From contig JAPJBO010000079.1 in the NCBI GenBank assembly GCA_030068145.1, positions 248,001 through 312,000 of the forward strand: a stretch of 64,000 bases of DNA, read 5' to 3'. The first letter of the stretch is position 1; each line of letters starts with the position of its first letter. The notes below the pieces were generated by a model, which ran no database searches, had not been told where the DNA came from, and worked only from the letters and a program-made list of their open reading frames with translations. The position numbers were made by a program, and so were the translations under genes. Source of the stretch: Diplonema papillatum. Lineage: Eukaryota; Euglenozoa; Diplonemea; Diplonemida; Diplonemidae. Shown in pieces: positions 24,421-57,932 of this stretch.

Positions 24421-25672
24421 CACGCCTCAAAACGCCTTGGCACCCCCGTTCCACAAGAAAGACGGCCCTGGCAGAGCATGCAGACACTGGCCGTCTGGGC
24501 TCGCGGTATATCAACACAATAGAACTTAAAGAGACTCCGTGTTCCTGACTTTTTGTCCACCAAGCCTGCACGTTTTGCCCTGAGTGCATGTTTTCTTGAA
24601 GCATCGATTTCATTCCCGAGCTGCGATCGCGGCCTTCGGGTCCCGAAGGCCAACAAGCCCTATAAGGGCAGCCCCACGGTCACCTCGGTGGTAAGTCGAG
24701 TCAGAGGGAAGACGCGAAAACGAACCACCGCGCCGCGCGAAGGAAAAACAAAACGACGATTCTCTTCTCTTTAATGCCAGCCCCGCCCGGGCGCGCACCG
24801 CCCTCTCTCGACCCTAGCTCTCTCCCCAGCCCGGTCCTGCAATAAGGATCGGCATCCTGCTTGATTATTGATCGATTGAAGCGGAACGCCGCCCCTTGAC
24901 ACTCACACCCAACCACACACCGAAAGCTGGGTGTCTCCCGTTTCATTCTGCGGTGCGTCGCTGGCTTGTGAGAATCAACAACGAAGTTGAGGTCTGAACA
25001 CTTTGCGCTCGGTTCGCGGAGCAGATGTGAAGAAGGCAACCGGCCTCGGTGCGGAGACAGTACCCTACCAATCGCCCCCCGCACGACTCCGCAAAGGAGA
25101 GCCTCCAGCGAGTCGACTCCGGCTCCGACAGCTTCCGCGCCGGATCGACCCCGGTTTGGTCCACCGGGTTCACCACGACCATGAGGCTGTGACTGCCGCC
25201 GGTACTACGTCACGCGGGGGATGGAGGGTGGGAAAAAGAATCGGGAAGGTGTGACTGACATTCTTTGATCCTGTTGGTTCGGGCTATTTCATGAGTGCTA
25301 CCTTTTACCGGGATATTTGCTAGTCGTCGAAGCCAGCCCCACCCCGAACTCTTCTGGTGTCGATCCGAGGTGGTCGTGCTAAACTGCAAAACCCGACGGC
25401 GCTGCAGGTGCTGTCGAGTGCCCAGCCGCGACCCCTGCGAGGCGGGGTCTTGTGCCCTTTGTGCGTCACCCATCGTCGCAGAGTCGACCTCCAGAGCGAC
25501 CTGCGCCCGCCTTAACAGTACGAAGAGAAGCCGAACGTGAACAGCACGGGAATGAGAGGCCGAAAGTTGAGAGAGACAGTAGAAGTAGCGCCGTCTCCGG
25601 CATGGGTAGCAAATCAAAGATGCAGTTAAGCACAAAAAGGCGGGGGCAGGGGGAGTGCGCGAGGGGGAGAAG
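24421..25672. other. Intergenic region with a perfect hairpin
   Basis: No gene supported. GGCCTTCGGG (24631-24640) and CCCGAAGGCC (24642-24651) form a perfect 10-bp inverted repeat with a 1-nt gap. Confidence 0.5.
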
Positions 25673-27733: not shown

Positions 27734-28638
27734 TGCCAAGCCAGGTCTTCAAACTCCCGAATTGGCGTTTGGGTTTTCGAGAGTATACATGCTGCTACTC
27801 GACCTGACCTCTTGAGTTTGTGCTGCTGATGATTGCGGGAGTACCTAAAGCAGGACCTACCTTCCTTCCGTGAGAAGAAGGCGAATCATACAGCCAGACC
27901 TTGAAGGCTGAACGTTCTTGAGTCGACATGCGGGGATACTCCCCGGAGAGATGGCTCCGGCACTCGTCTCTCTCTCGACATTTGTGGCGTCAACTTACTG
28001 AGTGGAGACTAATCTGGTCTCTCAACGCGGCACAACCCCGGGAACAACCAGGCACACACCCGGCGAGTACCCGGTACAAACCTGCCAAGAACCAAGCAAC
28101 CCGGCACAGAGCCAGCAAAACTGAAAAATGTTGGCCGACTCGGCGACAATGAAAGAGTAAAGCAGCGGCTGGAGCTTCTTCAATTCGCAGCCTCCGTGTC
28201 TTCCGCACGGAACTGAATCATTCTCGGTTCGCCATCTCGGCATTTTCGGTCTCGACGGTCTCTTGCATTACGATACCGAACACGCATTTCGTTACCCTTT
28301 TATTGCTGTAAGCAAGTTGATGCCGGCAAGCTCGATACCCTCTGGACGACCGATCGCACCTTTGTTGGTCGCGGAAGTTTGGCACGAGCGCCGACGGGTT
28401 TGCACGCCCGACTCGGAACATTCAGGTTCTTTTGATCTAATCACAACGATCTGCCAACGATTGCAATCAGTGTGGACGGCCGTCTCATCTCCGATTCGCC
28501 ACAAGCGCAGCAGCCTTGCAACGCTCAGTTTTTAGTCCTTCGGTTGCTATGAGTGGCCACCACCACCAGACACCAAAAGGTACAGACAACAGGTGCTGTG
28601 CCCGTGTAGGGCGCGAAGGGAGAGGGAGGGGAAGGAAG
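27734..28638. other. Spacer between the GT90 genes
   Basis: No gene. Repeat family B (copy 3) at about 27790-27895 lies right after copy 1; the rest has no clear structure. Similarity between the two GT90 loci does not reach into this spacer. Confidence 0.5.
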
Positions 28639-30762: not shown

Positions 30763-32652
30763 TGCGGCGAGCCCCCGATCTTCGTAGTCATGACTTGACA
30801 TTTTTGTCGGAAAACGGGCACGCTCAGCAAGGTTCAGCTGTCTGAGAAGTAGCCATGAAAGCGATTAACAGGCTTCCGCCAGTATCGCCGCGATGTGGCG
30901 CCAACTGCAACGCGCCTCCCTTTTCGGTATCTTCCGGGGCGCTCTGCAATCTTGCAGGCCACTCCGAGGCGTGGACAATTTGTTGTGGTGGTTGATGACA
31001 GAAGACCATCCCGAAAAAGCAAGCACCAAGGCACGATTTTTATATTGAGCTTCAAGCTGAAGGCGGCATGTCGCATATGCGAAATACCCCAGAACTGCGG
31101 GTAAGTGCTAGAAGTGCATGCTAATCCATGTGGTTCATGTACTCAAAAGAACTCAATGCTAGAACTGCACCCAGACCCCGTGCATATGCCGGGTGTCGGT
31201 ATAGAGAAGGCACTCGTCACGTGCGCGACCCATCACAAAGGGAAGTGTGAGGCGTGCAGAGCACTCGTCCGAAGGGACGTTCCCACGGTAGAGATGTGCT
31301 GCCGGCACCATCGATGGGCAGCCAATCGCGGTGTGCACAGAGCACAGCACGTCGAAGTGCGGCGAGTGCACGACGGCGGCGGCGTGTTGCCGCAGCGGGC
31401 ATCATGCCTGCCGCACGCATGGCAGAGGAACCTGCCAAGAGTGCAAAAGGCTCCCTACGCTGACGCAGAGGCGACCCGCGGCATGTTGCAGCCGCGGCCA
31501 CCACCAGTCCAACAAGCCGAACGTCCAGTCAACCCCCGGACGCAACAAGAAGAAGAGGCCCTCCTCACCCACCCAGGTGGGTGTACAGCGGGAGACGCCA
31601 TTAGGAAAGCGAGCGGCGCGAGCGCCGCTCGCGGCAACGAAAAAGGAGACGGCGGCAACCGGACGGGCGACCAAGAGGCCGCCACCAACGCCAGGAACCA
31701 GCGAACGACCAGCGCTGAAGAAGAGGGTGCTTGGCACCCCGAAGGAAGGCCCGATCACCGGCCGCAAGCGGAAGAAGACGAAGGCGACCACCCCCGACTC
31801 AGGGGTGCATCGAAGGAAGAAGAAGGTTCCGAGGGCAAGCAGCTCTCAGAAACGACCGGGGACCACGGGCACGCCAATGCCCTCGAAAGTGAAAAACGGG
31901 CACACGTGCCCGCCCTCGTACTCGCCGACTCAGTCTCTGGAATCGCAAGAAACCCCGCTAGCTCCACAAATGCTCGACCTTGACGACGCAATGGCAGGTG
32001 ACGACGTCATCCGATAACCTGACTTTCAAGGCAGTGCATGTTAATCCACGTGGTTCATGTACTTAAAAGAACTCAATGCTAGAAGGTGCTTGAGGTGGTG
32101 CTCAACACTGTCCAATCTGCACCTGTTGCGGTTCTTTTGATGCCACGGACACATTTGATCGGCCATCAGCAGCGCGGAGCCTTAGACACAGGAAGCTCAG
32201 CTTTATCGTGAAAACAACGAACCGAAACGTATGGGGAGAGATGCTTCCCTGCTTTCTCGCGGCGTATGCTAGCCTTTGGTCTCGGCGCGTTTGGTTTTGC
32301 ATCCAAGAGCAGTCTTTCTTCTTCCCCTTCGGTAGACGTGTACACGAGGCGGGTCCTTCCGGATGGAACTGGTATGGCGTGTAGTGAGGCCGCGCAATTG
32401 ATGCGCGCGAAATGAGGCGTGTTCCTGCAATCTGTTTCAAATTCCAGCATCCGTTATCACAAGAGGCAAAGAGAGAGGCGGGCGTGCGCCGAGTACACAC
32501 AGGCTTGACCGCCAGTAAAAAGGCCGCCCCATCTTAAGGATGCTGCACCGGTAGCTTGCCGTTAGCTTGCTTCGCTGACTCTCGTGAGTCACTTTTGGGA
32601 AACTCGACAACATAAATAAGGGTGGGGAGGGAAGGGGAGCCACGGTGGAACC
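30763..32652. other. Intergenic region containing a 972-bp repeat-bounded unit
   Basis: Apart from the element at 31113-32084 no gene is supported. A short perfect hairpin (TGACTC, TCGT loop, GAGTCA; 32576-32591) lies in the expected 5' UTR of VPS39. Confidence 0.5.
31113..32084 (+). mobile_element. Fossil or non-autonomous retroelement-like unit with direct terminal repeats
   Basis: Two 52-bp direct repeats (31113-31164 and 32033-32084, about 49/52 identical) bound a 972-bp unit. The interior encodes a Cys/His-rich, zinc-finger-like region with repeated C-x2-H, C-x2-C and CC-x3-H groups (about 31210-31510), then a Lys/Arg-rich tail to about 32017, a layout typical of nucleic-acid-binding gag-like proteins. 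No polymerase or recombinase is present. It looks non-autonomous and broken in at least one place. TGCTAGA precedes the left repeat and TGCTAGAA ends both repeats, as would fit recombinase-type insertion. Class is unproven. Confidence 0.5.
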
Positions 32653-35600
32653 ATGGTGCACAAGGCGTTCCGCCTGAAGGCGGTGCAAGACGTAAAGAAC
32701 CCAGTTTCCGCACTGTGCACAGTCGGGAGCAGCAAGCTGATAATAGGATGCAGCGACGGATCCATCTTGCTGTGGGATGTCAGCAACGGGGGAACGAAGC
32801 TGAGCCCGAAGCACGTCTGCAAGCCGAAGTCCAAGGCGCCTATCCAGCAGCTGATTCCCCTTCCGGATCTCAACTTGCTGCTAGTTGTCTTCGACGGCGT
32901 GATTCAACAGCACACCATCAGCCCGATAATCGAGCTCAAAAAAGAGGTGCCGAAGATTTCCGGCGTGACCATGGTCGCTGCAAAGAAGGACCGCGACCGA
33001 TACTACGCGGCGGCAACCGTCAAGCGGCAGAAGGTGTACATCCTCGAATACCGGAAGGAAGAAGCTGGCTTCGTGCAGAGGGCTGACCGGGCGGAGTACA
33101 CGCTTCCGGAGACACCGAAGACCCTCGTCTGGAACGCCTACGGGATCTTCATCGGGTTCAAGAAGGATTTCGGGTGGCTCAACGTTGGGACGAACGCGAC
33201 TCGGATGAAAGAAGTATTCGCCGCGTCGTGCATTGTGTCCATGCCGGTGACGTCGGAAGTGCTGCTGATCCGAGGTCAGGAAGGAGTGTCCCTGAACAGC
33301 GAGGCGGACCCTTCCAGGAAGACTGCGTTGCAGTTCCAGTCCATGCCGCACACGCTGGCCTACACGTATCCTTTCATCCTGGCTCTGGGCGACCGATCGA
33401 TCGAGGTGCGCGCGTTCCAGCCGCTTGAAAGCCGCGAGCAAGGGTGCGACATCAACTGCCAGGAACTGCAGCTGGCGCACCCGAAGTTCATCTCGCTCCC
33501 CAACTACATCGACATGGACCAAGCGGCCCTGCAACGCGTCGCGACGCGGCGGCCGGGCAACGAAGAAGAGGACCGAGGCATCGTGCACACGGCGCAGCCG
33601 CTGGTGTATGTCACGAGCGGGACGCAGAGCGTCCAATTGTTGGAACCCGTCCCGTTTTCGGAGCAAGTCGAAGAGCTGCTGTCCCGAAACAAGTCCGACG
33701 ACTACGAAGCGGCGCTCACCCTCGGGTCCCTGCTGACGGCGGACGACATTTCGGAGGATCTCATGAACCGCGTGTACATCATGTACGGCTTCCACCTGTT
33801 CTGCAAGAACCAGTTCCTCAAAGCCATGCACCTGTTTCTACGGGGCAACATCGACCCGCGGTGCGTGATTAAAATCTTCGGCCTGCTCCCCTCCTACGTT
33901 GAGCAGCGATGGACGCCATCACCGGAGCACGCGCGCTGCATCCAAGAAGCGCAGAAGGCGCTATCCGAGGTGCAGGAGAAGCTCAAAGCCATCGCGCAGC
34001 TCAAATCGTGGCTGAAGAACCTCCGCCAGTCCCCGACGCAGGCTGAAATGCAGGACGACCCGCTGAAGCTCGACACGACCGAGGCAGGTGTGTGGACGGC
34101 TCCATCTTCTGTTTTTTTTGCGACAACCAATTTCTGCTTCCCTGGAGACAGTATTTGTTACAGCTAAAAAGAACGTTGGCAGCGGTTTAACCAGAACACA
34201 CGTAGGTTAAATCGCACAAACAAAAAATATTTGCTCGTGCTATGGCTTGTGAGTTCAAGGCCGTGGATTGGTCCCCGATCCAGGTTGTCCGCGCCCCCGA
34301 CGAGTGGGAGGCTGCGGAGGAAGACGTCGACTGCTGTGTCGATTGTGGAAAGATCCACACCGCGGGGGCGTTCTGTGCCCGATGCGGGAAACGGGGTCTG
34401 GCCACCTGCCTCAAAGCGGCGCTCCCAAGGGAAGTCGCGCCCCTGTTCGTAGACCACTTAGCGGCGGACGGGTGGGTTTGCCCCGCCTGCATAGTGGCGG
34501 TGCACCAGGCTGGCACCACTCTTCAAGAAGAGTTCCGTGTCCGGATCGCTCGTGCTCAAGAGCACGACGCTCCGCCGAGCTTGGCTCAAGAGCCATTGCT
34601 CGCTGCCGTTGAGGAGGGCCCGGTCAAGACCGCTCTCCTCGCTTTGTTCGCCCAATCTGCCTTCCAAAACCTCCCGATGGCTGCGCAGGCCGCACCGGTC
34701 ATGACCGAGGCGGTGGACCCACGCCGAGTCATGACTTGGGTGGAGGGGTTGGCGACGGCTCCGGGGCGCCAAGTCATCCTGTCCGAAATAAAAGGCAGAT
34801 ACGCCTACCATTTGGTTCCCGAGAACCCCCACGACGCGGGGAGCGTGGTCGACCACGAGCGCCGGACCCACTTCGTCACTCTTATCGCCCTGATGCCGTT
34901 GGCGTACCAGACCCCGCCCATCCTCCAGGTGCTCCATCACATCATGGTCCGCCTGGAGGCCCTGCGGCTGAAGTGCTTGCATGCGAACGGGATCGAATTC
35001 CAGATTGCGTGGGAGACCCGGTTCGGGTCTTTGGACTACACCGACTTCACGAAGTCGGCTCTGGTCCAGGCGCAAAAGTCCATGGCCGACCTCTCAAAAA
35101 AGGCGGACCAGAGGGACGAAAGGAGGGAGCACCCCTCGAAGAGGCCGCGGAAGTGAATTGCGGCGAGCGCTTCTGTTCCCACCGGCCTGCCTTCGGAGGG
35201 TTTGTGGAAGGAGTTGGCAGCGAGGTCACGACCTCGGAAAAAGGACTCCGCGTGCCCCGATCAAGATCGGTTCCGGACGGACCAGGAGTCACTACTCCTC
35301 GCGTTGCAGAAGTGCTACAAGAGCACCCCTGCTATGCTGTCGGTGGTGAGCCGTGCTCAGAGGTACGCAGTGGAGGCCCGCCGGTTTTACCCCGCATTGT
35401 CCGACGAGGAGGCTTTCCTCATGTGGGTGAACCGGAAGATGATGGCCGGCGAGCTCACTGCCGAATCTGCCCTCCAGTACGCAACGTACTTCAGGATGTC
35501 CCGGGTGGACTGGATGGGTGCTTATCGCCGTTCGGTCAAGCTGACCATGGAACAGTTCGAGGGCCGACGCACCCGCGACGCCGGACGGACTCCGACCAAG

Positions 35601-38600
35601 GCGGCGATACAGTTGGTAGTCTCACGAGGCTCGTCCTTGCACGCCATGGCCCTCCGGTTCCAGTGGTCGACGGCTTGCAGGTTCGTGGATCTGCAGCGGA
35701 TTCGGCTGGACCACATGTGGTCGGTGGACACAGGACAGGTCATGATCCTGTTCGTCGGCGGGAAGACCGACCCTACCTCAAGAGGCCAGGGTCTCTTGCT
35801 ACCGCGAAGCGGTCCTTTTCTGACGCCTTTCTGGGAATGGATCACGATCCATCGGCCGGCCCTGGGCACCAAGGCGCCCCTGTTCCCCAACCTGTCACGA
35901 CAGGCCTACAACAGTTTCCTACAAGAGGAGCTGGGGGTGTCGTCGCACCGCATCAGACATGCCGCGCTGAGCTGGGTGGCCCTCCTGGAGGGCGAGCAGA
36001 CGGCGATGAACGTGGGGCGACACCTGAATCCCAGGACGACGCGCTTATACACTCCGCATCACCTTTGGCAGCCGGTCCTGCTCTCAGCCCCGGGCACAGC
36101 TGCCTTGCAAAGGACTGGGTGAACAGCGGCCCCGCCAAACAATCGCTGTGGCCGCGTCATCTCGACAAGATCCTGCAGGGGTATGACTACGCCAACGGCT
36201 GGCTAGACGCGAGTAGCGGGAAACGGGTCACGAAGGCCTCGTATGACGGAGAGATCGCTGCGACCGCCCCGCCGTTCAATCACGAAGCGCTTCTGCAGGA
36301 TTTCCCCAGCCTCCGCAGCAACATGAGGTGGGTCCTCGACGCCGCGTTTATCGCCACCATGCTGAAGCCGGGCTCGTTCGTATCCGGCCCGGGGCCCCGC
36401 AACTCCCGAATGATGCCGCACGTCGATCGCTTGCTTGAGTTGGACGTCGCTGCACCGGTCCCTAAAGCGGCGTCTTCCCGCTGGTTCCACGGCGCGTTTA
36501 CGGTGGACAAACGGGCCCCCGGTCAGCTGCGCTTCATCCTCAGCTGCGAATCCATCAACCGGGCTACGGCACACGTGCCTCTGCCCCCCTGCGACCTGCC
36601 CAGCTACGCCACCATCGTGACTACGGTGCTGTCCCGCAAGTGGGTGGCTGAGTTCGACTTCCGCTCCTTTTTCTTCCAGTTTGCGCTGCCTCCAGAGGTC
36701 AGGAAGTATTTCTGTTTCCGTGTTGAGGGCAGGCTGATGTGGATGACGCGCCTGCCGATGGGCTACCGTGCCGCGCCTCAGGCGGCCCAGGCGGTCTCGC
36801 TGGAGCTTGCGGTTGCCGCCGCCCAGGGTGTTGACGTTGAGGTCCTCGCGTGGATCGACAACGTGATCTTCGTGGCGGACACTGAGGCCGAAGTTATGGA
36901 AGCCTCGGCTCGCTTCAAGGCTTTGACTTCGAAGTAAGGCTTGACCATCGGGAGCTGGTCCAAGCCTTCTACCCGCGCGGTGCTGCTGGGACTGGATCTC
37001 GACCTCGCAGCGAAGGGACCGGTAATGGGCCAGATCCTGGAGTTCAGTGCGGCTCCCGTCCGCGTGTGGTGGAAACTGACCGGGTCTCTGCTCTGGCGTC
37101 GCCACGTGATGGGGTACCCTCTCCACGAGGTGCTTCCCCTCTTGCATTGGATGTCCGCCCTGGCCTCCGGCCGCGCGTCTACCGACAGCGCGTTCTGGGA
37201 CTCCGTCGCGCCTTGCCCAGCTGCGGTCAAGAGCTGCCTCGCTGCCCAGTGCTCCGACATGCGGGGTAACGCCTGGCGGCAATGGTGCAGACCGGTTTAC
37301 ACTCGTTCGATTGATGTCGTCTCCGACGCCAGCATGTCGGCATGGGCATTCGTGGCAGACGGGTTCCATGTCTATGGGGGCTTTCCTTCGGAGTTGCTCC
37401 ACGCGGACATCTTCATGAAGGAGCTATACGCCGTCGTTCGGGCCGTAGAGCACGCGGTCCACGCCCAGTCGAGCATGGACATCAACCTGCTTTGTGACAA
37501 CAAGGCGGTGATAGGCTGCGTACGCCGCGGCTACACGCTTCGTCAGGATGCGATGCAGCTGCTAACTCTGATCAACAAGAGCTTGGCCTCATCCAGGAGC
37601 CGGCTGAACATCAGCTACGTTCCGTCGCTCCAGAACATCGCGGATCAGTACACAAGACTGAATCGTCCGCAATGTTAGCGCCCAACATCGACTTCCCGCT
37701 TCGTCGAGTCCTCGTCAAGTGGGTCGGTTGGTTTTTCCTCCGTGTGGCATGCAATTCATCATATCAGGCGATCAGCCGCTTTTTTGCTTAGTTTCCGCCG
37801 GGTCCCATCCCGGGTTATCTGTCGCTTACGGTGGTGAGAAGGAGGGGGGAGGGGGGGTCCGAATAGGGGCCGCTCGTGCTCCGGTGCCTGTTCTTTTATG
37901 CGACAACCAATTTCTGCTTCCCTGGAGACAGTATTTGTTACAGCTAAAAAGAACGTTGGCAGCGGTTTAACCAGAACACACGTAGGTTAAATCGCACAAA
38001 CAAAAATTTGCCGGCAAACACGGAAGACCTCAACCCCAGAGAAGTAGCTTCATATACCCTATGTTGACCCCATACAACATCCAAAAAAAAAAAAAAACTA
38101 TAGTTATAGCCAGCGGCCGGGTGTCGTGGGTGGGCAGCGGGAGTGGGTGGTCATGTGGTGGGAGGTTGTGGAGGTTGTGCAGTGGGTGGGTGGTGCGGTG
38201 GGCAGTGGTGGGGTATGTAGTGGGCAGTGAGTGGGTGGATGATGCAGTACGGTTACTGCACCTTGGATCATCGTTCTAGCAACGTACACCCTCAATTTTG
38301 GAACCTGGCCCATTAGCTTGGCAAAAATTTCCGCGCCTGCGGCGCTGGCATTTTTGGCTTGTGTATTGTTTCATGCCCTGTTGCCAAGACCGCAGTAGTC
38401 CGCCCTGCTCTCTGCTGTGGTGGGCAGTAGTGACAACCACAAAGAGGAGCTGAAAGTGCACTTGACTCAACTTTGCCGCAGTCCCTGTGGACTACAACGC
38501 GGCTCTAGCGATTCTTGCTGTTTGGATACCTGCAGCGCTGACCCATTAGCTTGAAAAAATTTTCGCGCCTGCGGCGCTGGTACAAGCTTATGTAGTGTTA

Positions 38601-40528
38601 CATGTCGTGTTGCCAAGAAGACCACAGCTGTCTGCCCTGCTGTCGCAGATAACCACCAGGCGACACTTGCCTTCTTCGCATGGCTTTTTTGCTTCCCGAA
38701 GGACAGTCTCTGTGGTGGACAGTAGTGACAACTACAAAGTTGCCACAGTCTGCGGACTACAAAGCGGCAAGCGATTCTTGCTGTGTGGCGCTACCTTCGA
38801 TGAGCAAAACCCACTTGCATGTGCCGCATTTCGTCCGAACACCCCACGCCCTCAACACAGTGTCGGTCTGAGCTCCACACGCACCAAATGCCACGAGGAC
38901 CAGTGCTCTGTACAACATTTGGTAGATTTTACGTGGGGCTCAGAGCTCAAGCTACTTCCCTGCTCAACCCGCTTTGAAAAAAAAAAAAAAAAAAAATGAC
39001 GCCCGCCGACCGTCGCCGCGTGGGTAGCTCCGAAGGATAGCAGCGTCAGCCGTAGCGGAAATTTCCAATTCCGCCAGCTTACGCATACCCATATCAGTGC
39101 GGCAGTATACCTTTTTCTCCTCCGAACCACAAACCGTCACTCGCGCTCAAAACCAATTCAGGGATGAAGCAAGCTTCCGTCGACACGGCGCTGCTGCGTG
39201 CGCTCCTCCTGACGTCCGAGCATGACGTGGCTCCCTTCCTGGAGCTGCCGAACCGGTGCGTTCTGGAAGACTGCGAGAGCTTCTTGCGGGAAGATTCGAA
39301 GTGGGGCGACATCGTCGCTCTGTACAAATCCAAGCGCCTCGACCGCAAGGCGCTAGAGTTGCTGAAGGACCTCGGCGAAGGCACGAAGTCGAGAGACCCG
39401 AAAGCCAGGGAACTCGGCATCAACGGCACCATCGCCTACATCCAAAAGCTTGATCCTGCCAACGCGACCCACCGCGAGCTGATCCTCGAGTACTCGGAAT
39501 GGGTCCTCCTTCGCGCCCCGCACCACCAAGCCCTCCCCATGTTTTATTCGAACCCCAAAAAGGTCATCACCCCCCGGCTCGTCTACGAGCATTTGCGCAA
39601 GGTCCTCCCCCGCAATCTCGAGTGCCAAGCGGGGTACCTAGCCAAGATGCTGGAAGACCCCATCCTCAAAGCGCTGCCCGAATGCCGGAATTCGTCGATT
39701 CACGAAGCGTTGATCGACGTGTACGTCGCTCTGGTTAAGAAATACAACGGCTGCGGGAAGGTGAAGGACGCTGAGGCGATCAAGGCTCGGCTGCAGAGCT
39801 TCTTGAAGACATCCGAGCGTTACGACCCGGAATCGGTCAAGCAGCAGTTCGCCGGGGAGGATTTCTACCGCGAAATGACGATCGTCCACTGCAAGCTGGA
39901 GCAGCACGAGGACGCGCTGCGCATCCTCGCCCACAAGCTGAACTCCTTCGACGAGTGCGTCGCGTACTGCCAGAACGAATCGGTCGCGAAGCCGCCGCCG
40001 TCCGCGGCCGCCCCTTCCGCGGCGCCGACCTCGGCTCTCGCCAAGGGCCGCGAAAAGCGGCAAGAGCTGCACTTCATCCTGTTCACGCTCCTCCTGAACC
40101 CCGACGACAAGAGCCCTCCCAAAGTGGAGCAAGCCCTGCGGCTCCTCAACCTCTACCCCGACAAGGTCAACTGCCTCAAAGCGCTGAAAATGCTCCCCGC
40201 CGACACGAAGGTGCACGACGTGGCGCAGTGGATCGTGCAAGTGCTCAAGGACGTGTCCGTCAAGAACCGCGAGACCAAGATCTACATGAACCTCTGCAAG
40301 TCGGAGCACCACCAGGTCGCCGTGCAGCGGGTGTACCGGCTGCGGGAGAAGTTTGTCATCGACCAGAAGACGGTGTGCCCCGTGTGCAAGCGCAAAATCG
40401 GCAACTCGATCGTCGCGTACTACCCCAACGGCAAGCTCGTGCACAAGATCTGCGCCACGTCGCTCCTGGTCTGCCCCGTTACGAAGAAGACGTTCTCGCC
40501 TCTCGACGAGCTGGGCCCAAAAAACTGA
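32653..40528 (+). CDS. VPS39: VPS39/Vam6 HOPS subunit, two exons split by a 5-kb intron
   Basis: Exon 1 is 32653-34087 and exon 2 is 39162-40528. The donor GAGGCAG|GTGTGTGG (phase 1) and acceptor AATTCAG|GGATGAAG (phase 1) join in frame to give 933 residues, near the 886 of human VPS39. Exon 1 encodes the CNH/beta-propeller domain (MVHKAFRLKAV, LIIGCSDGSILLWD, VWNAYGIFIGFKKDF) and the first Vps39 helices. Exon 2 carries the clathrin-repeat alpha-solenoid (ALYKSKRLDRKALELLKDLG) and the C-terminal zinc motif (TVCPVCKRKIGNS with a later His and Cys). VPS39 links Rab7 to HOPS for late-endosome/lysosome fusion. A retroelement occupies most of the intron, but splicing would remove it, so the gene should be intact. 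Confidence 0.9.
34120..38006 (+). mobile_element. VIPER/DIRS-like tyrosine-recombinase retroelement (fossil) in a VPS39 intron
   Basis: Two identical 107-bp direct repeats (34120-34226 and 37900-38006) bound the unit. Parts in order: a gag-like frame with two Cys-pair zinc-ribbon-like groups (34242-35156), a tyrosine recombinase (35202-36122), and an RT then RNase H region (about 36120-37675). The recombinase shows the catalytic set Arg (ACRFVDL), Lys (GGKTD), HRIRH, GRH and Tyr (TTRLYTP). RT shows FDFRSFFFQF, LPMGYRAAPQAAQ and WIDNVIF. RNase H shows VSDAS, KELYAV, LLCDN and NIADQYTR. The order gag/YR/RT-RH is that of trypanosomatid VIPER. Identical repeats suggest a young insertion. It looks nearly whole, with about one break. 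Expected split B repeats were not recognised. Confidence 0.85.
38007..39161 (+). repeat. Rest of the VPS39 intron: G-rich tract, tandem duplication, poly-A runs
   Basis: A poly-A run at about 38082-38096 is followed by a G/T-rich tract (38120-38240) with many GGGTGGG-type runs. Two diverged tandem units of about 235-265 bp come next (38309-38541 and 38542 to about 38805), each starting CCCATTAGCTTG. A run of 20 A closes the block at about 38977-38996. The intron ends AATTCAG at 39161. Confidence 0.6.
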
Positions 40529-47319: not shown

Positions 47320-50300
47320 ATGCAGAGCTTTGCAGAATCCGCTGGGCTTGAATCCATCTACGGCAGAGAGCCGAAGCTAAATGATGTGCTGATCGAATTC
47401 TCGCGGTGCAACAAAGCAGCAATGAAGAGCGTTTGCGAGCGGATACGAGTACAAGAGTCGGAAGACAAGGCCGCAGAGGGGGCAAACTGGCTGAGAAGTG
47501 AATTGAGCACCCGGTAAGAGGGTGAGTTCCTTATTTTCTCTCCCTAACTAAAGCGCGTCACCAAAACTCCTTGCCAAACAAACAAAGGTCGCAAGACACC
47601 AAACTGATCGTCCTTCGGGATCGACGGTAACACAAAAGTGTAGATGCGTCACGCAACAGTTTTTGAAAGGATAGCGAAAGAGCGAAGACATATTTTTCGC
47701 CATCGCTGCGTGCTTGCATCCGGTGGTGCCATCAAAGGCTTCTTGTCTAGGAGACCTGTGCTGCTGACGCAACACCAGCATAATAGATGACAATCTGTGG
47801 GGGGTTCAGCGCGGGGCGGCGGCGCCCGGCTCGCCCAGCGCGCCCGCAGCAAAGAGACACAGCTGTGCAATGCCGGACTAGCGCTGTCAAGGGACCATGC
47901 CGATAACGCGTGTAGTGTACTTCTTTGCATGCACGAACTGCCCACTAACTCAACACTCAAAAAACAGGTGCGGGGAGGGGTGGAAGCGGCTGCACACATT
48001 CCAATGCCCTTTGCATCGAACCACTGGTGCAGGCCTGACGAAGCGGCGTCGTTCGGCAGCTGCGACTCGCAGATTGTGCGGTTGGACGACACGGCGCCGT
48101 CGCCGGCGCCTTCCGGCGAGCGGCCGGCTCCCGCCGCCGCTGCGCAGGAGGCGCGGGGCGCCCGCGTTCGAGCGCGCCCGCAGCAACCAGCGACACACAT
48201 GCACACGACTAGCGCTGTAAAGGGACCCTGCCAATAACGCTGGAGCCCCAAAAACATGAAAATCCGTGTAGTGTACTTCTTTACATGCACAAACTGCCCA
48301 CCCCCCCTAACTCAACACTCAAAAAACAGGTGCGGGGAGGGGTGGAAGCGGCTGCACACATTCCAATGCCCTTTGCATCGAACCACTGGTGCAGGCCTGA
48401 CGACGCGGCGTCGTTCGGCAGCTGCGACTCGCAGATTGTGCGGTGGGACGACACGGCGCCGTCGCCGGCGCCCTCCGGCGAGCGGCCTGCCGCTGCGCAG
48501 GAGGCGCGGGGCGCCCGGCTCGGCGCCCGCGCCTTCGAGCGCGCCCGCAGCAACCAAAAGCGCCGCGAAAAGTACGGCGCCGCCGCGAAGCCCCAGCCGC
48601 CCACGCCGTCCCCCGCGCGGTCGACCGCCGACCCGTCGGCGACCGGCGACGACACCTCTTTTGCGGCCCTCTACAAGCGGACTTTCGGCCACCCGCCAGA
48701 CCCCACGCCCGCGCCCATCGACCTGGACGACGCCCCTTCGCTAGTGTTCGGTGCGCGCTCGGGGTCGCCGGCGGCGTCGCTCTCGGCGGCGGAGACGAAG
48801 GGGTCCTCCTCCTTCAGCCTGTACGGCTCCGTCCGCGGGCTGGCTGGACAAAAGCTGCCGGCAGGCACCCTGCCGGCCGCCGCTTTGCGCGGCGAAGCCG
48901 CGGCGCCAGCCGGCGCTTCGGACAACGCACCGGACCCGCGCGAAGCGGTCGCCGGGACGCCTGCGGTCGGCTGTGGAAACACAGCTAGTCTCACCGTATC
49001 GGGGACTGTCGATGGCTCGCCGGGGTGTACCCCGGGTCGCATCGACGGCAGAGGCCAGTTGACGCACGGCCCCGCGCCCGCGGTCGGTCGTGGCAACTCA
49101 GGCAGTCTCACTGTATCCGGGACTACCGATGGCTCGCCGGGGTACACCCCGGATCGCCTCGACATCAGAGGCCGCTTGGCGCACGGCCCCGCGCCTGCGG
49201 TCGGCCGTGGCAATGTAGCCAGTCTCACCGTGTCGGGGACGACCGAAAGTTCGCCGGGGTACACCCCGGGCCACTTTACGCACGGCCCCGCGCCTGCCGT
49301 CGGCCGTGACAATGCAGCCAGTCTCACCGTATCGGGGGCCACCAAGTGCACGCCGGGGTACACCCCGGATCGCCTCGAGGCGTTCATCAGGGCCCACTCG
49401 AGGCACGGCCCCGCGCCTACCGTCGGCCGCGGAAACACAGCGAGCCTCGCCGTATCGGCGACCACCGAAGGCACGCCGGGGTACACCCCGGATCGCCTCG
49501 AGGCGTTCATCAGGGCCCACCGACCGCCGGAAACGCCCGGCGCGCAACCGGAGGCGGACCAGGTCTTGGATCCCCCTCAAGTTCCCCCCGAAATCCCGGC
49601 GAGCGCTGGGTTTGACGTGCCTCAGGCAGCCAACGCCGCAGGCTCGAGACACCAGCCGTCTGAAGACGCACGCGCCGCCGCCCTGGAATCGAAGCGTGGC
49701 CGCAAAGCGGCGCCGGCTCAAGCTCGCAGCCTTGAGCAGCAGCCGGACGGCCCTGCGCCGGCGCCGAGGCGTGCCGGCAGCGGCTTCGCCCGCTCGGGCC
49801 CCGCCGCGGGCGCGGCTGCGGCGGGGGCGGGCGGACCGGGGCCGGCGAGCACGTTCTCGGGGGGAGCGTCGGCCACCGACTGTTTGATGGCCGCCATCGC
49901 GCGGCGCCCGGGACCACCGCGGCGGCAGCCCGGCGGCGAAGCGCCGCCGGCAGTGCGCGGGAAGCTCAGCCTGCGCATCGAGGACGCGAACGACGCGCCG
50001 AAGCGGAACATCTGCGTGCGCAGCATCTTGAAACGACCGGACGCCGCCCCCCCCGGCGCACCCCCCAGCCGCGGGCGGGAGGAAGAAGAAGACCCCGACT
50101 GCGACTCGACGCCTTTCGTTCCGTTGACGGACGAAGCCAGGGCGAGGATTTGCTCGTGGTTGACCGGCACCGAGACCGAGGCGGAGCCTCGGACACCCAC
50201 GCGGCGGGACGCTGGCTTATTAATATTAGGCGCAAGCTCGCACCCGCCGGCAGCCGGGGCAACCCGCGCAAGCGACCGGAGCAGCAGGCGGTCAGAAAAA

Positions 50301-53300
50301 GGCGAGTCGAAGCCCGCGGGCGCGCGCCGGCGGTCCGAGGATGGAAGTGCGAAGAAACCGCCGCGCGAGCTTTCTCGCGATGGCTCTGCTGTGAGTGACG
50401 GGGGAAGCGACCGAGCGGGGAGCAAAGACACGGGCGGCATTGCCGGTGGGCGCAAAGTGTGCGAGGAGGCAAGTGCGAAGAGCCGGTCTCGTGAAGCTTC
50501 TCACAACTCTCTTGCGAGCTCCAAACCCAAGCGTATCCAAAGAAGCGGCAACCCCAATCTCAGCCTCAATCGTGCGGAAAGCTTGCGTACAAAAGGGAGC
50601 ACGGCAGGGCTGGGGGGTAGGCACAAACTGGCCGAGGGTGCACGTATAAAGCGCGCAACTTCTCGCAACAGCTCTGTTCCGAGCAGCAGGTCCAAACGTA
50701 GCCGAAGTCGTGTGGGAAGCAATGTTTCAACGGGCGCGGATGCAGCAAATAACAGGAGCCTCCAACGCAGTGTTCCGAGGGTCGCAATTGGGCGCAAGCG
50801 CCCCGCAGAGGGCACCTCGAAGAAACGGTCGCGTGAAGATTCTCGCAGTGCCTCCGTTGCGAGCAGAAGGTCCAAGGGTAGCCCCAAGTGTGCAGCAAGC
50901 AACGATTCGAGGAAAAGCGCAGCAGGGCTCGCAGTCCATCAGAAGCCGTCTGAACGGAGCATTGTGAAGAAACCGTCACGTAAAGTTTCCCGCAGTGTCT
51001 CCGTTGCACGCGGCAGATCCAAGTGTAGCCCCCAGCGTGGGTCAATCAACGATTCAAGCCGAAGCGCAGCAGGTCTCGCAGTCTGTCCAAGACGGCACGA
51101 GGAAAGTAGCACACAGCCACGGCGCGACCCTTCACACAGTGGGTCCGTTGCCAGCGGCAGACCGCAAAAGAGTTGCCACAGCGCGGGAAGCAAAAAAGCG
51201 GCGGAGCCGACGGCAAGCATCGATGAACGCCGCCGCGCAGATCACAGCCAACAACGCGGGCCGCCGGCGCAGGGCAAGCCGTTGTTCAAAAGCGCCGAAC
51301 CGGACAACACCGTACTGCACGTAGGTCATTCGCCACGTGCTGTCGCCAAACCCATACTCGTGGGAGCAGTGACAGATGGAGCTGCTTGTACGCAAACAAC
51401 GTCCCTGCAGGCAAGCGGACTATCGCTCCAGGCCCGCCCCCGTCGTTCACCGGTACCGATTCCCGAGGATCGATCTGCACAATCGGTCAACGTGCAGGTC
51501 AACAATTCGAAGGACGCGGGCCCGCTTGATGGCAAGCTGGCTCAAGTTGCCTCGACAGATGAAGGGGACGAAGAAGCTCATGCAAATGCAAGCGGACCGC
51601 ATTGCGACGCGTCGCTAAACGGTGTTCGCACGGTCGACGAGACAGCTGTTCGCAGTGCTTCAAAGCGGCCCAACGAAGATACGGATCCTGCACACGATAG
51701 AACTCCATCCAGGGGTATGCACGCTTCGGGTTCGCTTGCAAGCAAGTTGTCCTCGGAAGGAGCCTTGCCGGGAGAACGCGACGCGATGCACACAGACTGT
51801 GTCGTCATACTTGATGTCAAGCCGGCATCGCCTCCAGACTGCATTCCGCCTGTGAAACTATCATCGGCCCATGAGTGCGAGGAAGCGAGTCAAGCGTTGT
51901 TCCCGTCGCTGAGTCCGAAGGGGGCACCCTTGCAACGGTGTCCGGAAAGAGCTGCCAAATTGGGTTTCAGATGCGATGTAAACGGCGCAGATTGTGCACT
52001 CATTGAGTTCTCGTTCTCGGAAAATGCTGAAGGATGTGAAGCTCCTCCGTTGTCTCCGAGTGCTCGCAACGAAACCAACGGCAGGTCCGTGACAACAAGA
52101 CCCCTCTACATCGACCAGCCGCTCTTGCTGACCTGCTCCATTGCAACACGGAGCCCTTCTCGCGTCTCATCAAGTGGGGTTGTGCCGGACTCAGTACCAT
52201 CTCCGAATTCGCAACGAGAAGATCCGCCACCGGATGACGATGTGCAGCAAACTGCTGGCAGCCAAGTCGCGCTTAACGCATCGGCAGCTCTTCACGCGAG
52301 AGTACCCGAGCAGAAGGCGCAACCAGCTTTCGTAAAAGAGCCGCGGACAGCACCCAAAGTAACCCCACAATGGCAAGACCCCCGGTCCAGCATTCGGGAA
52401 CTGCGCCCGCCTGATGACAGTGCGAAAGAAGATGCGCATACTCCGACGGCAATGTCGGGTCGTAGCGTCAAGAACAAGTCTGGCCTTCTCACAGACAAAC
52501 CACCACCCAGCAACGGGATAAGACACCCAGCATCGGCCCCGATCCGTGCTATCGAAGTCAAGCCTGGCCGTTCCCCGATACGTCTTTACAAAATGCCAGC
52601 GCCTGACAGCAGTGTCCCAACAGCGGCCCCGCGTTGTGAGATCGAACACCAGATAGCACCCGATGCCGATACGAAGGACCCGACATCAGATCGTTCGCGC
52701 CTTCATGAAGTCAAGCCTGATAGTTCAATGACAGGCCCATTTAGAGAACCCCCCGCTGTGGTCCATAAAGACGAACCTGGGCCTGACCTTTTCCGGCCAG
52801 CTGCTCTCGCAGCGCCCCTCGATACGAGAGACGTGACAGTAGCAGCCACACTCCATACGATTCAGATCAAGTCCGACCGTCCTCAGACGGACTCTCGCGA
52901 GGGATTGCCGCCAGGCTGTACCGACGGCACCACCGCAAAAGGTGGCCATGCGGCTGAAGTCGAACCGGGCCGAAAAAAGACGGGTGCCACTACTACTGCC
53001 AGCAACGGGGGCTCGGCGAAGGCGAAGCGGAAGCGCAGCGCCTCCGGCAGCCGCCGTGCCGCCAGAAGGACGCCCGCCCGCCCAGGAATAGCAGACGGCT
53101 CTCCCGCTGGCGAGCAGAGCGAGGAATGCAGCCCGACTGGGCCGCGCGATACCCAAGTTCAGGGAGGCGCACGCGACGGGCCTCGGGCGACGGCTGTGGA
53201 AGCTCGACAACGGCGAGGGTCCGCAGAAGACGAACCCACGGGACGGCTGCCCGAGCAGGCGACCCAAGCAGCTGCTGACGACCGCACCGCTAGCGGCAAA

Positions 53301-56300
53301 AGTGTTCCAGGCGGCCATCGCGTGGCTGCGACTGGTGTTGCCTCGCCCTCCCCCGAACCTCCTCCAGCGATCTTGCCGGTGCAAGCAGCTGGCGGTAGAG
53401 CCGTTAGCGCCCGCAGTGTCCCCGACGGCCATCGCGTGGTTGCAGCCGGTGTTGCGTCGCCTTCCCCCGGACCTCCTCCGGGAGACCCCCCGACTCTGCC
53501 TCCGGGCACGGGCGGCGGGGCGCTAGACAGAGCGTCTCCAGCAGAAGCAGTAGCAGCAGAAGCAGTAGCAGTAGCAGCAGCAGCAGAAGAAGCAGCAGCG
53601 CCACCTGCACCATTAACAGAAGCATTAGCAGCGCCACCAGCAGCTGCAGCAACAGAAGAAGCAGCAGCGCCATCAGCAGCTGCTGCAGCAGCAACAGAAG
53701 AAGCAGCAGCGCCACCAGCAGCTGCTGCAGCAGTAACAGAAGCATTGGCAACGCCACCAGAAGCTGCAGCAACAGAAGAAGCAGCAGCGCCATCAGCAGC
53801 AGCTGCAGCAGCAACAGAAGAAGCAGCAGCGCCACCAGCAGCTGCAGCAGTAACAGAAGCAGTAGCAGCGCCACCAGCAGCAGCTGCAGCTGCAGCAGTA
53901 ACAGAAGAAGCAGCAGCAGAAGCAGCGGCGGATGCCGTCGAAAAAGCGCACGCCGCCGGCGGTCAAGCGCGGCGAGGAAAACACGGCCGGAAGGCAGCCG
54001 CCCCGCCCGAGCCGCCGGCCGCGAGAGGAAGGAAGAAGGCTAAGAAGTCCGCCAAGGGCAGCCCCCCCGCAGGCGAGGCGGGCGCCCGCGCACCCGACGC
54101 GGACTTGCGTCGGTTGGTGCAAGGAAAGCCAACCGAGGACGAAGCCGAGGACGGCCAGCTCGATGTGAGCCCCTTCGTACAGGCCGCCCCGAGCCTGGTC
54201 GACCCGCGCGTCGTGACGGAGGAGGACCAAAGCTCGTCGCAGACGTTTGCACCTGCAGCGGCGGAGCACAGCGCCGCGGGCGTGTTGCCCTACTCGCCTT
54301 CTTGCCATTCAAACCCCGACGCGCACACCGCGACGCAGCCCGCGGTTGCTGACTGCGTGGAGCTGCCCCGTCCCACGCAGGGCAAGGGCGCCGGCGCCGA
54401 GCCCCTGCTGCTGCGCTCCGTTTGCTTGCGGGGGTTCAAGTCGTTCGCGGAGGAAACGACGATCTCGCTGTCGAGCGGGTTCAACTGCATCGTCGGCGTC
54501 AACGGAAGCGGGAAGAGCAACGTTTTGGACGCGTTGTGCTTCGTGCTCGGGATGAAGCCCGCGTTCCTCCGCTGTAAGCGGCTCGCCGAATGCGTGTCCC
54601 GCGTGGGGGGAGGAGGAGGAGGCGGGAAGTGGCCGACGGAGGTGACCATCGGGCTGACCGACGGTTGGAGGACGCACACCGTGTCGAGGAAGCTCAGCGC
54701 CGCCGGCGCCAGCGAGTACGCTATAGACGGCGCCGCGTGCCCGTCGAGCAAGGCGGTCGCGTCCTTTTTCGCCGCCCGCGGGGTCGACCTGGCCTTCCCG
54801 CAGCGCTTCGTGGTCTTCCAGCAGAACACGACGACCCTCCTCTCCTCGACGCCCCTCGACCTCCTCTCCCGGTTCGAGGCGCTGTCGGGGTCGGCGGCTG
54901 CCGGCGAGCGGTGCGAGGCGCTGCGGGCCGAGCTGGCGGCGCTTCGCGCCGAAAAAGCGACGGTCCTCGCCGACGCCGAGCGGGTGAGCCGCCGCGTCGC
55001 GGCGGCGGAGCCGCTGCTCGCGCGCTGGCGCGTCGTCGCGGCCCGGCACCGGGAGCTCGCGGCCGCCGAGCGGGCGTGGGCCGTCGGCGCGTGCCGCTGC
55101 CTCCACGCTCTCGCATCCGCCTGCAGGCGCACCGCCACCCAACTCACCAGCGGGCGGGTCGACGAGGCGAAGACCGCGTCGGAAGCAGCGTGCGCGCGGG
55201 TGGACCGGCAGCGGGACCTCCTCGACGGCGCCTGCCGCACGTTGAAAAAGGAGCTGCGCCCGCGGGCCGATCGCCAGCGGGGCCACCTGGCAGCCGTTCA
55301 GCAGCAGTGGGCGAAGGCCCGGAGCGCCGAAAAAGCGAGGGAAGCGTGGCGGCAGGTCGCCGAACGCACGGCGGCCGACCTCGAGGAAGCGGACGCCGAG
55401 GCGGAGAGGGGCAAAGTGGTGGCGGACGCGTACGACGAGGAGGCGGCCGGACTCGAGGCGAAGATCCGCGCAGCCTGCGCCGCAGGGTGGGGTCCGTCGG
55501 CGAGCGGGACGGCAGCCCGGGCGCTGGTGCAGATGACGCGCGAAGCCGCGGAGAAGGACGCCGAAAAGCGGCGGAAGGAAGAGCAGCACGCGGCGGCGCG
55601 AGCCGACGCCGCCGCCGCGCGGGCCGGCGCCGCGGCCGCGGCGGAGAGCCTCCGCCGCGCGAAGGCAGCGCTGGAGGCGGCCGCGACCGCCGTCGCCGAG
55701 GCCAAGCAGGGCCGGGCGGCCGCCGCCGACGAGCACCGGCGGCTGTCGGCGGCGCTCGCGGCCCTGCAGAAGCGGAGCAGGGGCCGCCGAGCGGCGACGC
55801 GCGGCGGCGCGCAGCAAGCCCGCGGCGAGGCGTACAGAAGGGAGGTCGCCCTCTTGCAGCAGCGCCTGATGCGGGAGAAGCTGCGCGGGGGAGCCAGCGG
55901 CGACCGCGAAAACACCCCCGGCGACGCGCACGGGAAAACCGGCGCTGCGGTGAGTGATCGTGCCATTTACGGGTTCGCGTGCGAGTGGGTCACCGTCGAC
56001 CCGGCCCACGCCGTGGCGGTCAACAGCGTGCTCGCCGCGTACGCGGCGAGCACGGTGTTCGTGTCCGGCAGGCAGGTGGCACTCGAGGTGCTCGGACACT
56101 TCCGGGATCACCGCGTCGGCCGCGTGTCCTGCGAGATTGTAGGGGACCACCCGCCCAGCGGCGCGGCCGCCCCGCCGCCGCCCGCCGCCGCTGCCGCCGT
56201 GCACCGGTGGCACGGGGGCCCGGGCGAGCAGAAGTTCCCGACGCAGTGGCACCCGGGGCTTGGCGCCGCCGTCCTGCAGCGCGTCCGCGCCGCCGCCGGC

Positions 56301-57932
56301 AGCTGGGCGCTCGCCGCCGACTTCGGCGGCGCCTTGGCGGTCGCGAGGGCGCGCGGGGTCCCCGCCGCGACGCCGGCGGGCGAGCTGCTGCACAGGCCGG
56401 GGGTCTTCTCCCGCCCGCTGCCGCCGGCGGACTGCCTGCGGTTGCAGCCCACGGGCCCGGGCGTTGATCTCCCGCGCGAGGAAGACGGCGGCCGGCGGCG
56501 GGAAGAGGACGGCGACGATGATGAAGAGAAGGCGATGGAGCAGCGGCTAGCCTCGACAGCCCTGCAGCTGGAGACCTGCGGAAACGCGGTGGCCGACGGG
56601 TTCGACCGGCTCGGCGCGGCGGAGGCGTGCATCGCGCAAAGCCGGAGCGAGCGGGCGCGCTTCGCCGACCGCGAGGAGGACCTGCGCATGCTCGAGGCTG
56701 CGCTGGCCTGCGAAATCGGCAGCCTCAACGTCGCCATCGGCGACTTGCGCGCGAAGGCCGACGCCGCCCGCGCCGAGCTCGGCGGCGCGGCCGAACAGCG
56801 CAGCCAGATCGACTCCGCGCTGCGGACGGTGGAAAGCCTCGGCGCCGAGCTGTCCGACCTGGAGGGCCGCCGGTTGTCGGCGCGCCGCTTCGTGGCTGAA
56901 ACCCGCGTCGCCTGCGAGTTGCAGCGGAAGGCGTTGGCGGCCCTGGAGGGCAAGATCGCGGGGCCCGACGGCACCGGGGTTTCCAACCGTGATGTGAAAA
57001 GCGCGCAGAAGCGCTTGAAGGAGACCGAAGAGCTCTGCAGGGAAGAGGAGTGCGAAGTTGCGCGGCTCGAAGTCGAGCTGGAGGGCGCAGAGAAGGCTGC
57101 CGTGAAGGCGCTGAACGAGCTGGAGAAGGCGCAGGAGGAACTGGCCGCTGTGGGGAAAAGGTGGAAGGACGCGGATAGGAGGAGGCGGAAACTGCTGAGC
57201 GGGCTGCCTCCAGACGTCGCGGCGCAGGCTGTCGTGCTGGCTGGCGAAAAGGACCGCAATGTGGAAGAATGGCTGAAAGGTGTAGAAGCAGAGCGGGTCG
57301 AGTTGGAAGGTAGACACCGTGTGCTGAAGTCAGCCGTGTCACTCGTCGATGAATCGATCTTGCAGGAACACCTAGCCAACGCCCGATGGCTTGCACAGTC
57401 ACGGTCGGTCCTCGAAGAGTTGGAACCTGAGATTCAAAGTCACCTGACCGTCTTCGAATCACTTCTATCGCGCAGGCTCGAAATTGTCAACAACTGTCTC
57501 ACGCGCGTCAACCAGCACACGTCGCTCGCATACAAAGCACTGACCGACGCCACCTCTGACTGTGCCCTCTCATACAAGCCGGATGCCGTGCACCTTTTCG
57601 CGCAGGGTGTATCCATCCGAACTCGCCTCGCCGGCTCGAGCCAGTGGCTGCCCACGGACAAGTTGTCCGGCGGCCAGAAAGCGCTGGTCGCCTCCGCGCT
57701 GGTGATCGGCATGCAGCACGCGTTCCCTTCGCCATTCTATCTCTTCGACGAGATCGACGCTGCGCTCGACGCGGAGAAGGCGCAAAAGCTTGCCGCCTTC
57801 CTGGCTTCGGACAAGTCCCTCAAACAGGTCGTCTGCATCTCGCTTCGTCACCAACTGTACAACACCGCGAAAACCCTCATTGGCGTGTACCAAGCCTCCG
57901 GCGTTAGCCGAGTAGTTCAAAAGCGTTTCTGA
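47320..57932 (+). CDS. Giant SMC-family ATPase with ~2,070-residue N-terminal extension
   Basis: Exon 1 (47320-47513) ends CCG|GTAAGAG in phase 2; the AG at 48393-48394 restores phase, and exon 2 (48395-57932) runs 9.5 kb unbroken, giving about 3,243 residues. The last ~1,170 residues are a complete SMC: Walker A GVNGSGKSN (about 2099), a Gln loop (VVFQQN), an Arg-finger-like basic patch, an Ala/Glu/Arg-rich coiled coil, a hinge (YGFACEWVTVD, about 2590-2730), a second coil, the signature LSGGQKALVASA (about 3155) and Walker B YLFDEIDAALD (Asp 3183). The end CISLRHQLYNTAKTLIGVY most resembles SMC1, while the head GFKSFAEET also recalls SMC2 and bacterial SMC, so the class is open. The extension holds GYTPDR repeats, Arg/Ser-rich repeats and an Ala-rich tract, and is probably disordered and nuclear. 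An alternative start inside exon 2 (48366) would skip exon 1. Confidence 0.85.
47795..48560 (+). repeat. Tandemly duplicated 5' exon region of the SMC gene
   Basis: The segment 48260-48560 (start of exon 2 with its acceptor) is repeated at about 47910-48185, and the tail of a third copy lies at about 47812-47910. The upstream full copy keeps the acceptor (CACTGGTGCAG at 48032) and the frame RP-D-AASFGSCDSQIV, but it diverges and soon meets a stop (about 48236), so using it would give a short product. Confidence 0.75.
48950..49530 (+). repeat. In-frame ~39-residue repeats, five units
   Basis: Each unit reads roughly PAVGRGN-ASLTVSGTT then GSPGYTPDRL and ends HGPA. Starts are near 48963, 49081, 49198, 49291 and 49423; one unit is shortened and the last two carry an extra EAFIRAH segment. 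Confidence 0.8.
50430..51230 (+). repeat. Degenerate Arg/Ser/Lys-rich protein repeats in the SMC extension
   Basis: About six diverged units of roughly 42-45 residues with the pattern KxSExSxxKKxSRxxSRSxSVAxxRSK then a Gly/Ala-containing spacer (for example SIVKKPSRKVSRSVSVARG). This basic composition would suit DNA or RNA binding or phosphorylation. Confidence 0.6.
53527..53940 (+). repeat. Ala-rich GCA/GCAGCAGAA repeat within the SMC gene
   Basis: Imperfect 60-120 bp units built on GCAGCAGCGCCACCAGCAGC encode EEAAAPPAAAAAVTEA-type repeats. Likely prone to length change by slippage or unequal exchange. Confidence 0.85.

Follow-up and report, generated by a model that had tools for sequence, protein, structure and literature searches.

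We analyzed a 64,000-nucleotide stretch of the genome of Diplonema papillatum, a single-celled, probably marine flagellate (contig JAPJBO010000079.1, positions 248,001 to 312,000 of the forward strand; hereafter the window), in which one plus-strand gene encodes a divergent SMC ATPase. Its stop-to-stop open frame (48213..57932; 3,239 codons) joins a low-complexity N-terminal extension of 2,039 residues (residues 1-2039, 48285..54401) to an SMC protein running from head to head (residues 2041-3215, 54405..57929) with a full set of ATP motifs. From the first ATG at 48285, the coding sequence (48285-57932) specifies a protein of 3,215 aa. No in-frame stops were present between 48213 and 57932, compared to 54.6 expected when the local sequence is modeled as a first-order Markov chain; before 54.2 kb alone, the same model predicted 37.3 stops and the SMC frame had none. 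The other five frames carried stops in most kilobases, and each was interrupted over the stretch before 54.2 kb. A first-pass annotation, made by a model from the letters alone, had described a very long repetitive extension ahead of an SMC protein in one unbroken frame, with Walker A at residue 2071, and our analysis bears this out. It had also placed the start of the gene at 47320; we rejected this start, since that frame has stops throughout and the open frame begins only at 48213.

The 5' end of the gene is locally repeated. Using blastn, we detected a partial copy of the 5' end (48258-48556) upstream of the gene, at 47902..48189 on the plus strand, with 265/301 positions (88%) identical between 47909-48189 and 48265-48556. 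The two copies are separated by a distance that is not divisible by three, and the upstream one is a local duplication. Diplonema papillatum genes are known to have repeated 5' regions of this kind (PMC10161547). Reading the sequence, we noted a possible splice acceptor, CTAAC...CAG (48307..48329, +), that recurs in the upstream copy at 47945. Because it ends 36 nt before the ATG at 48366, the protein may begin there instead, with 3,188 aa.

The SMC part matched Pfam SMC_N with a score of 159 bits. Walker A (GVNGSGKS, 54495..54518, +) and the Q-loop region (RFVVFQQN, 54804..54827, +) lie in the N-terminal head, and the signature motif LSGGQK, Walker B FYLFDEID, and D-loop AALD (57663..57770, +) lie in the C-terminal head; all five elements are intact, as the first-pass annotation had proposed. 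Between the predicted coiled coils is a putative, degenerate hinge (55959..56420, +). An AlphaFold2 prediction of this part on a 21-row alignment placed, in order, a head, a coil (179-513), a globular middle, a second coil (704-1061), and a head, with a mean predicted local distance difference test score (pLDDT) of 66.3 and a predicted template modeling score of 0.41; the predicted hinge blocks mostly had pLDDT <70. The best Foldseek match of the predicted SMC part was condensin Smc4 (E 1.4e-28, template modeling score 0.25).

To place the protein among known SMC chains, we compared it with the PDB using phmmer. Archaeal Smc (111.8 bits), SMC1 (111.5 bits), and SMC2 (99.6 bits) scored almost equally, whereas SMC5 chains reached 21 bits compared to 112 for the best match. 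The protein thus lies nearer to chains of SMC1-4 and of prokaryotic Smc than to SMC5/6, and these scores do not suggest a grouping with SMC5/SMC6. The near-level scores agree with an earlier remark that the heads mix SMC1-like and SMC2-like features, although the pattern fits a divergent paralog and not a standard SMC1 or SMC2. The lysine pair acetylated in SMC3 is missing, with SAAGASEY in place of the GSKKDEY found in the SMC3 of the same genome.

The extension matched no Pfam family over residues 1-2039. It is rich in Ala (17.6%), Pro (11.4%), Ser (10.5%), and Arg (8.7%), and from this composition it is probably mostly disordered. Near its start is a five-unit repeat of 33-41 aa (...SLTVSGTT..SPGYTPDRL; 48923..49501, +), with spacings of 117, 117, 99, and 123 nt. 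The GYTPDR repeats noted previously therefore exist as a family, while the exact hexapeptide occurs only three times. An Arg/Ser/Lys-rich segment follows (residues 601-1000, 50085..51284, +) and contains imperfect repeats at distances of 147 and 468 nt. A basic cluster at residues 1578-1595 (53016..53069, +) was found by eye and is presumably similar to a nuclear localization signal. Further along are an Ala/Glu/Pro tandem-repeat tract (~residues 1752-1890, 53538..53954, +) and a Lys/Arg cluster, RGRKKAKKSAKG (residues 1914-1925, 54024..54059, +), ~115 residues before the head. The earlier description of the extension as basic holds for patches such as residues 601-1000 (net charge +45) but not for the whole, which carries a net charge of +36 over 2,039 residues and -21 in residues 1601-2000.

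We then asked whether the extension behaves as coding sequence. Nine windows lay entirely within the extension, and their triplet periodicity, as chi-square per 600 bp, was 31.9, 22.8, 12.7, 23.9, 26.1, 18.3, 38.7, 56.0, and 235.8. Outside the open reading frame (ORF), values were at most 13.9, except for 66.0 in a neighboring carrier gene and 33.2 in a window that is nearly all ORF, such that eight of the nine extension windows exceeded every noncoding window. Spacings between repeats within the ORF also preserve the frame: those of families D2, D4, D5, and D6 (117, 117, 99, 123, 147, 114, and 468 nt) are all multiples of three, as are those of family D1 in the Ala-rich tract, while repeat pairs involving the upstream copy (D3, D7, and D9) have spacings that are not. 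Among D2 repeat copies, substitutions at codon positions 1, 2, and 3 numbered 99, 86, and 120, and codon changes comprised 51 synonymous and 145 non-synonymous in this frame, compared to 30/164 and 20/176 when read in the alternative frames; the signal is weak, and the pairs are not independent. A codon-usage model, for which nine frames of the window with Pfam support served as the training set, favored the ORF frame over 48.2-50.6 kb and again over 54.2-57.8 kb. In the SMC part, GC content at third codon positions (GC3) was 0.89, dropping to 0.70 at its end.

To determine which other SMC proteins this organism encodes, we ran a profile search of the assembly (271,365,524 bases in 2,910 contigs), which returned at least 13 matches to SMC_N (13 of 57 candidates scored) and six to SMC_hinge (7 of 7 scored), and assigned these by blastp to reference heads. 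SMC2 lies on contig C467 (51-61% identity to SMC2 references), SMC4 on C242 (44-81% to SMC4 references), and SMC3, with its KK site, on C1721. The N-terminal half of SMC1 is on C1390 and C2207 (same frame, 1,704 identical bases) and its hinge and C-terminal half are on C2866; we take these halves to be one gene, and their spread over contigs points to fragmentation or duplication in this part of the assembly. As all of SMC1-4 are encoded on other contigs, the long-tailed SMC is none of them and represents an extra paralog by this census. The expectation of a standard eukaryotic SMC of the SMC1 or SMC2 kind therefore does not survive.

Three SMC ATPases, the long-tailed SMC and those on contigs C21 and C139, matched none of SMC1-4 well by blastp. 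For the C21 protein, the best match in both halves was the long-tailed SMC (90.1 and 92.8 bits, compared to 65.5 and 70.5 for the next). The C139 protein (G000:C139:273500-282000, minus strand) has the signature YSGGQR and Walker A GANGAGKS, and is too divergent to place in a tree; it is close neither to SMC1-4 nor to the pair formed by the long-tailed and C21 proteins, and in-frame repeats are visible by eye in its coiled-coil region. Neither the N-terminal half of the C21 protein nor either half of the C139 protein matched an SMC5/6 chain in the PDB at E 1e-6. Within the C21 gene, at ~4996-5622 of the locus and between its N- and C-terminal frames, is a frame that we take to be transposase-like and that probably lies within a long intron. 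The search also returned an SMC_hinge match of 24.4 bits at C243:18193-18579 (+), with no SMC head detected by blastp in the surrounding 9.9 kb; this appears to be a hinge-only, SMCHD1/DMS3-like protein.

Phylogenetic analysis of the heads linked the long-tailed SMC to its C21 relative. In the main tree (349 head columns, 20 sequences, including the genome's own SMC1-4; SMC5/6 were in none of our trees), SMC1, SMC2, SMC3, and SMC4 each formed a group with the genome's own copy at 99.9-100% support, and the long-tailed and C21 proteins were sisters (approximate likelihood-ratio test 91.7, bootstrap 96). Earlier and alternative trees were run without the genome's SMC3: there, the sister pair had support of 94.7/98 in the earlier tree, 99.8/100 without C139, 95.7/97 without bacteria, and 99.6/98 under a mixture model, with 86/88 for the N-terminal head alone and 99/97 for the C-terminal head alone. 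The pair was thus recovered in five full-head trees with 92-100% support. Approximately unbiased (AU) tests rejected placing the long-tailed SMC apart from C21 within SMC1, SMC2, SMC3, or SMC4 (p 0.002, 0.0014, 0.0003, and 0.0007, respectively); a first AU run had rejected all five placements apart from C21 (p 0.003-0.015), and a second run of the Shimodaira-Hasegawa (SH) test rejected all four separate placements. The SMC phylogeny proposed as a check in the first-pass annotation, run here on the heads, groups the protein with C21, and identity as canonical SMC1 or SMC2 is rejected by the census together with the AU tests.

Based on these data, we favor, with a probability of roughly 0.6, the interpretation that the gene encodes an extra, lineage-specific SMC motor whose giant and probably disordered tail tethers it to chromatin or regulates it there. 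Several observations weigh against it. Neither the SMC protein nor its genome position had a Pfam SMC_hinge match, so dimerization is not assured. The first SH run left three of five separate placements unrejected (p-SH 0.08-0.09), AU tests did not reject the pair as a whole within SMC1, 2, 3, or 4 (p 0.19, 0.44, 0.45, and 0.24), and the head is 31.8% identical to C21 compared to 31.3% to the 6qpq SMC1 reference (gap ~57 residues). Within the extension, the codon model does not favor the ORF frame in 50.6-54.2 kb, which is still stop-free, and GC3 there is 0.44-0.59; a 56-nt GC-rich repeat pair inside the ORF, D8, is out of phase, contrary to the frame rule, probably by chance in GC-rich DNA. 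S/T-P (CDK-type) sites are not enriched in the tail (45, compared to a shuffle mean of 37.7 and maximum of 57). Among the matches listed (best 120 of 2,408; 7,996 candidates scored), no ortholog in another species was found, which is weak evidence because candidates were drawn by shared words and the protein is biased in composition. Finally, cohesin has been proposed as a possible organizer of condensed interphase chromatin (PMC12324889), in which case an extra SMC would not be required for interphase condensation.

The strongest competing explanation is that one canonical SMC (1-4) of this genome was duplicated in this lineage and that the copy evolved fast while its role remained near that of the parent, for example in meiosis or at a particular stage; we consider this a real contender, albeit less likely than not. 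The AU tests accommodate it by allowing the pair inside any one of the four canonical groups, and the C-terminal head motif block is locally similar to the genome's SMC3 (67% over 39 aa). However, maximum-likelihood trees that included C21 placed the pair outside SMC1, SMC2, and SMC4, and, in the tree with two SMC3 members, outside SMC3 as well. The head shares only 24-31% identity with any canonical type, and the absence of the SMC3 lysine pair also speaks against such a parentage.

It is unlikely, in our estimation, that the mature SMC lacks the extension or the middle part of it (50.6-54.2 kb), this being an in-frame intron or a separate upstream gene, with the SMC starting via a spliced 5' exon. 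The codon model and GC3 of that region fit this scenario, the database gene call for the long-tailed SMC (P0002) begins only at residue 1145, and cis-introns, some non-canonical or very long, occur in diplonemids (PMC12621601, PMC10161547). Conversely, the SMC frame has no stops before 54.2 kb while the other five frames are interrupted, and repeat spacings preserve the frame. There is also no in-frame ATG between 52728 and 54552, the latter being downstream of Walker A, so a separate SMC started by an AUG near 54.2 kb would be missing Walker A; starting there would require either a spliced 5' exon or a non-AUG codon. We read 50.6-54.2 kb as translated but young or weakly constrained sequence, part of which could be spliced out. 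That the gene is a decaying or non-functional SMC copy, as its degenerate hinge and long branch might suggest, is very improbable: the SMC frame is intact over 3.5 kb, keeps all ATP motifs, and has a strong bias at third positions.

Comparison with known systems places the favored extra motor relative to its family. Like SMC1-SMC4, the protein combines its heads and the five ATP motifs in one chain, and two coiled-coil arms with a globular middle are predicted between the heads. It differs from them in the QQ that replaces QG after the Q-loop glutamine, here and in C21, in its low head identity, its position outside SMC1-4 in the maximum-likelihood tree, its lack of a Pfam hinge match, and its 2,039-residue extension. 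A low-complexity tail ahead of the head is shared with condensin SMC4, where the tail is reportedly a regulated region in yeast condensin. In PDB chains, though, the head begins at ~residue 154 in yeast Smc4 and ~99 in human SMC4 compared to ~2041 here, more than 10 times further in, and the long-tailed protein is not SMC4 itself, which this genome encodes on C242. With the C21 protein it has in common the blocks GVDx.FPxR..V.QQ and CISLR.QL, and neither has a Pfam hinge. For C21, no long extension was detected, as the frame of another gene (USP-like by eye) ends ~250 bp upstream, and its GC3 is lower (0.60-0.67 compared to 0.70-0.89). The SMC4 paralogs of the nematode X-specific condensin offer a parallel for a lineage-specific extra SMC, there with a chromosome-wide task; those are said to be recognizable SMC4 duplicates with a special role, whereas the AU tests allow any of SMC1-4 as parent of the long-tailed SMC and its C21 sister.

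Among 2,669 scored candidates for long-protein homologs (1,768-5,626 aa), likewise drawn by shared words, only the protein itself was recovered, which again is weak evidence. A search for viral relatives reduced 116 pattern stretches to one confirmed locus with only 26 matched residues. By eye, the Smc proteins P0010 (Streptomyces carpaticus, 1,589 aa) and P0013 (1,537 aa) have hinge regions interrupted by long Ala/Pro-rich insertions. Six SMC subfamilies are recognized in eukaryotes (PMC9389158). The main text of the mitochondrial-proteome paper PMC12699882 contains no occurrence of SMC, and an extra SMC is likewise absent from the consulted passages of PMC12324889. In the openly accessible papers returned by our literature searches, genome-paper supplements excluded, no title or abstract opening reports an extra or long-tailed diplonemid SMC, although a gene model for this protein may already exist.

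Elsewhere in the window, ten frames besides the SMC exceeded the Pfam cut-off, all on the plus strand (20 plus-strand frames scanned). Ten minus-strand frames, a minority of those present, matched no family. This arrangement is in keeping with the long unidirectional gene arrays described for the Diplonema papillatum genome (PMC10161547). We found no Rfam or tRNA matches in the window. A CFAP300 gene at 23293 had 16 database matches including itself, the eight best others being 50-59% identical; one match carries the label Hpha_, presumably the diplonemid Hemistasia phaeocysticola. A dinoflagellate host was considered and rejected, with no spliced-leader relic detected. Two adjacent Glyco_transf_90 frames are on the same strand (25610-27730 and 28441-30759). 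At 32620-40528, frames for a CNH domain and for the C-terminal part of Vps39 lie ~5 kb apart, with other coding-like frames between them; both may belong to a single Vps39 gene that has introns or carries an insertion.

Returning to the favored extra SMC motor, its mechanism would follow that of other SMCs, given its family membership and intact motifs: folded-back heads would dimerize via the hinge and ATP to form a clamp or loop-forming motor on DNA. The protein would probably pair with a different SMC in a heterodimer, the first candidates being C21 and C139. Basic Arg/Ser and Lys patches of the tail could keep the complex in the nucleus or attached to chromatin, while its Ser/Thr-rich parts may be regulatory, in a role like that of the much shorter SMC4 N-terminal tail. 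In P. papillatum, chromosomes are condensed in interphase and carry cohesin, while condensin SMC4 is mostly diffuse (PMC12324889). The complex could help to maintain this interphase condensation in diplonemids. The fuller proposal, a further diplonemid SMC complex in addition to cohesin, condensin, and SMC5/6 in which the long-tailed SMC and C21 (or C139) form a heterodimer and the tail is a multivalent chromatin tether acting in interphase condensation, is speculative and we regard it as improbable in its entirety.

Collectively, these findings describe a genome with all of SMC1-4 and three further SMC ATPases, one of which has a tail longer than its motor, a clear and testable case of SMC innovation. 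The lineage in which it falls keeps its chromosomes condensed in interphase, and in P. papillatum, where SMC1 and SMC4 have been tagged, endogenous YFP tagging works (PMC12324889).

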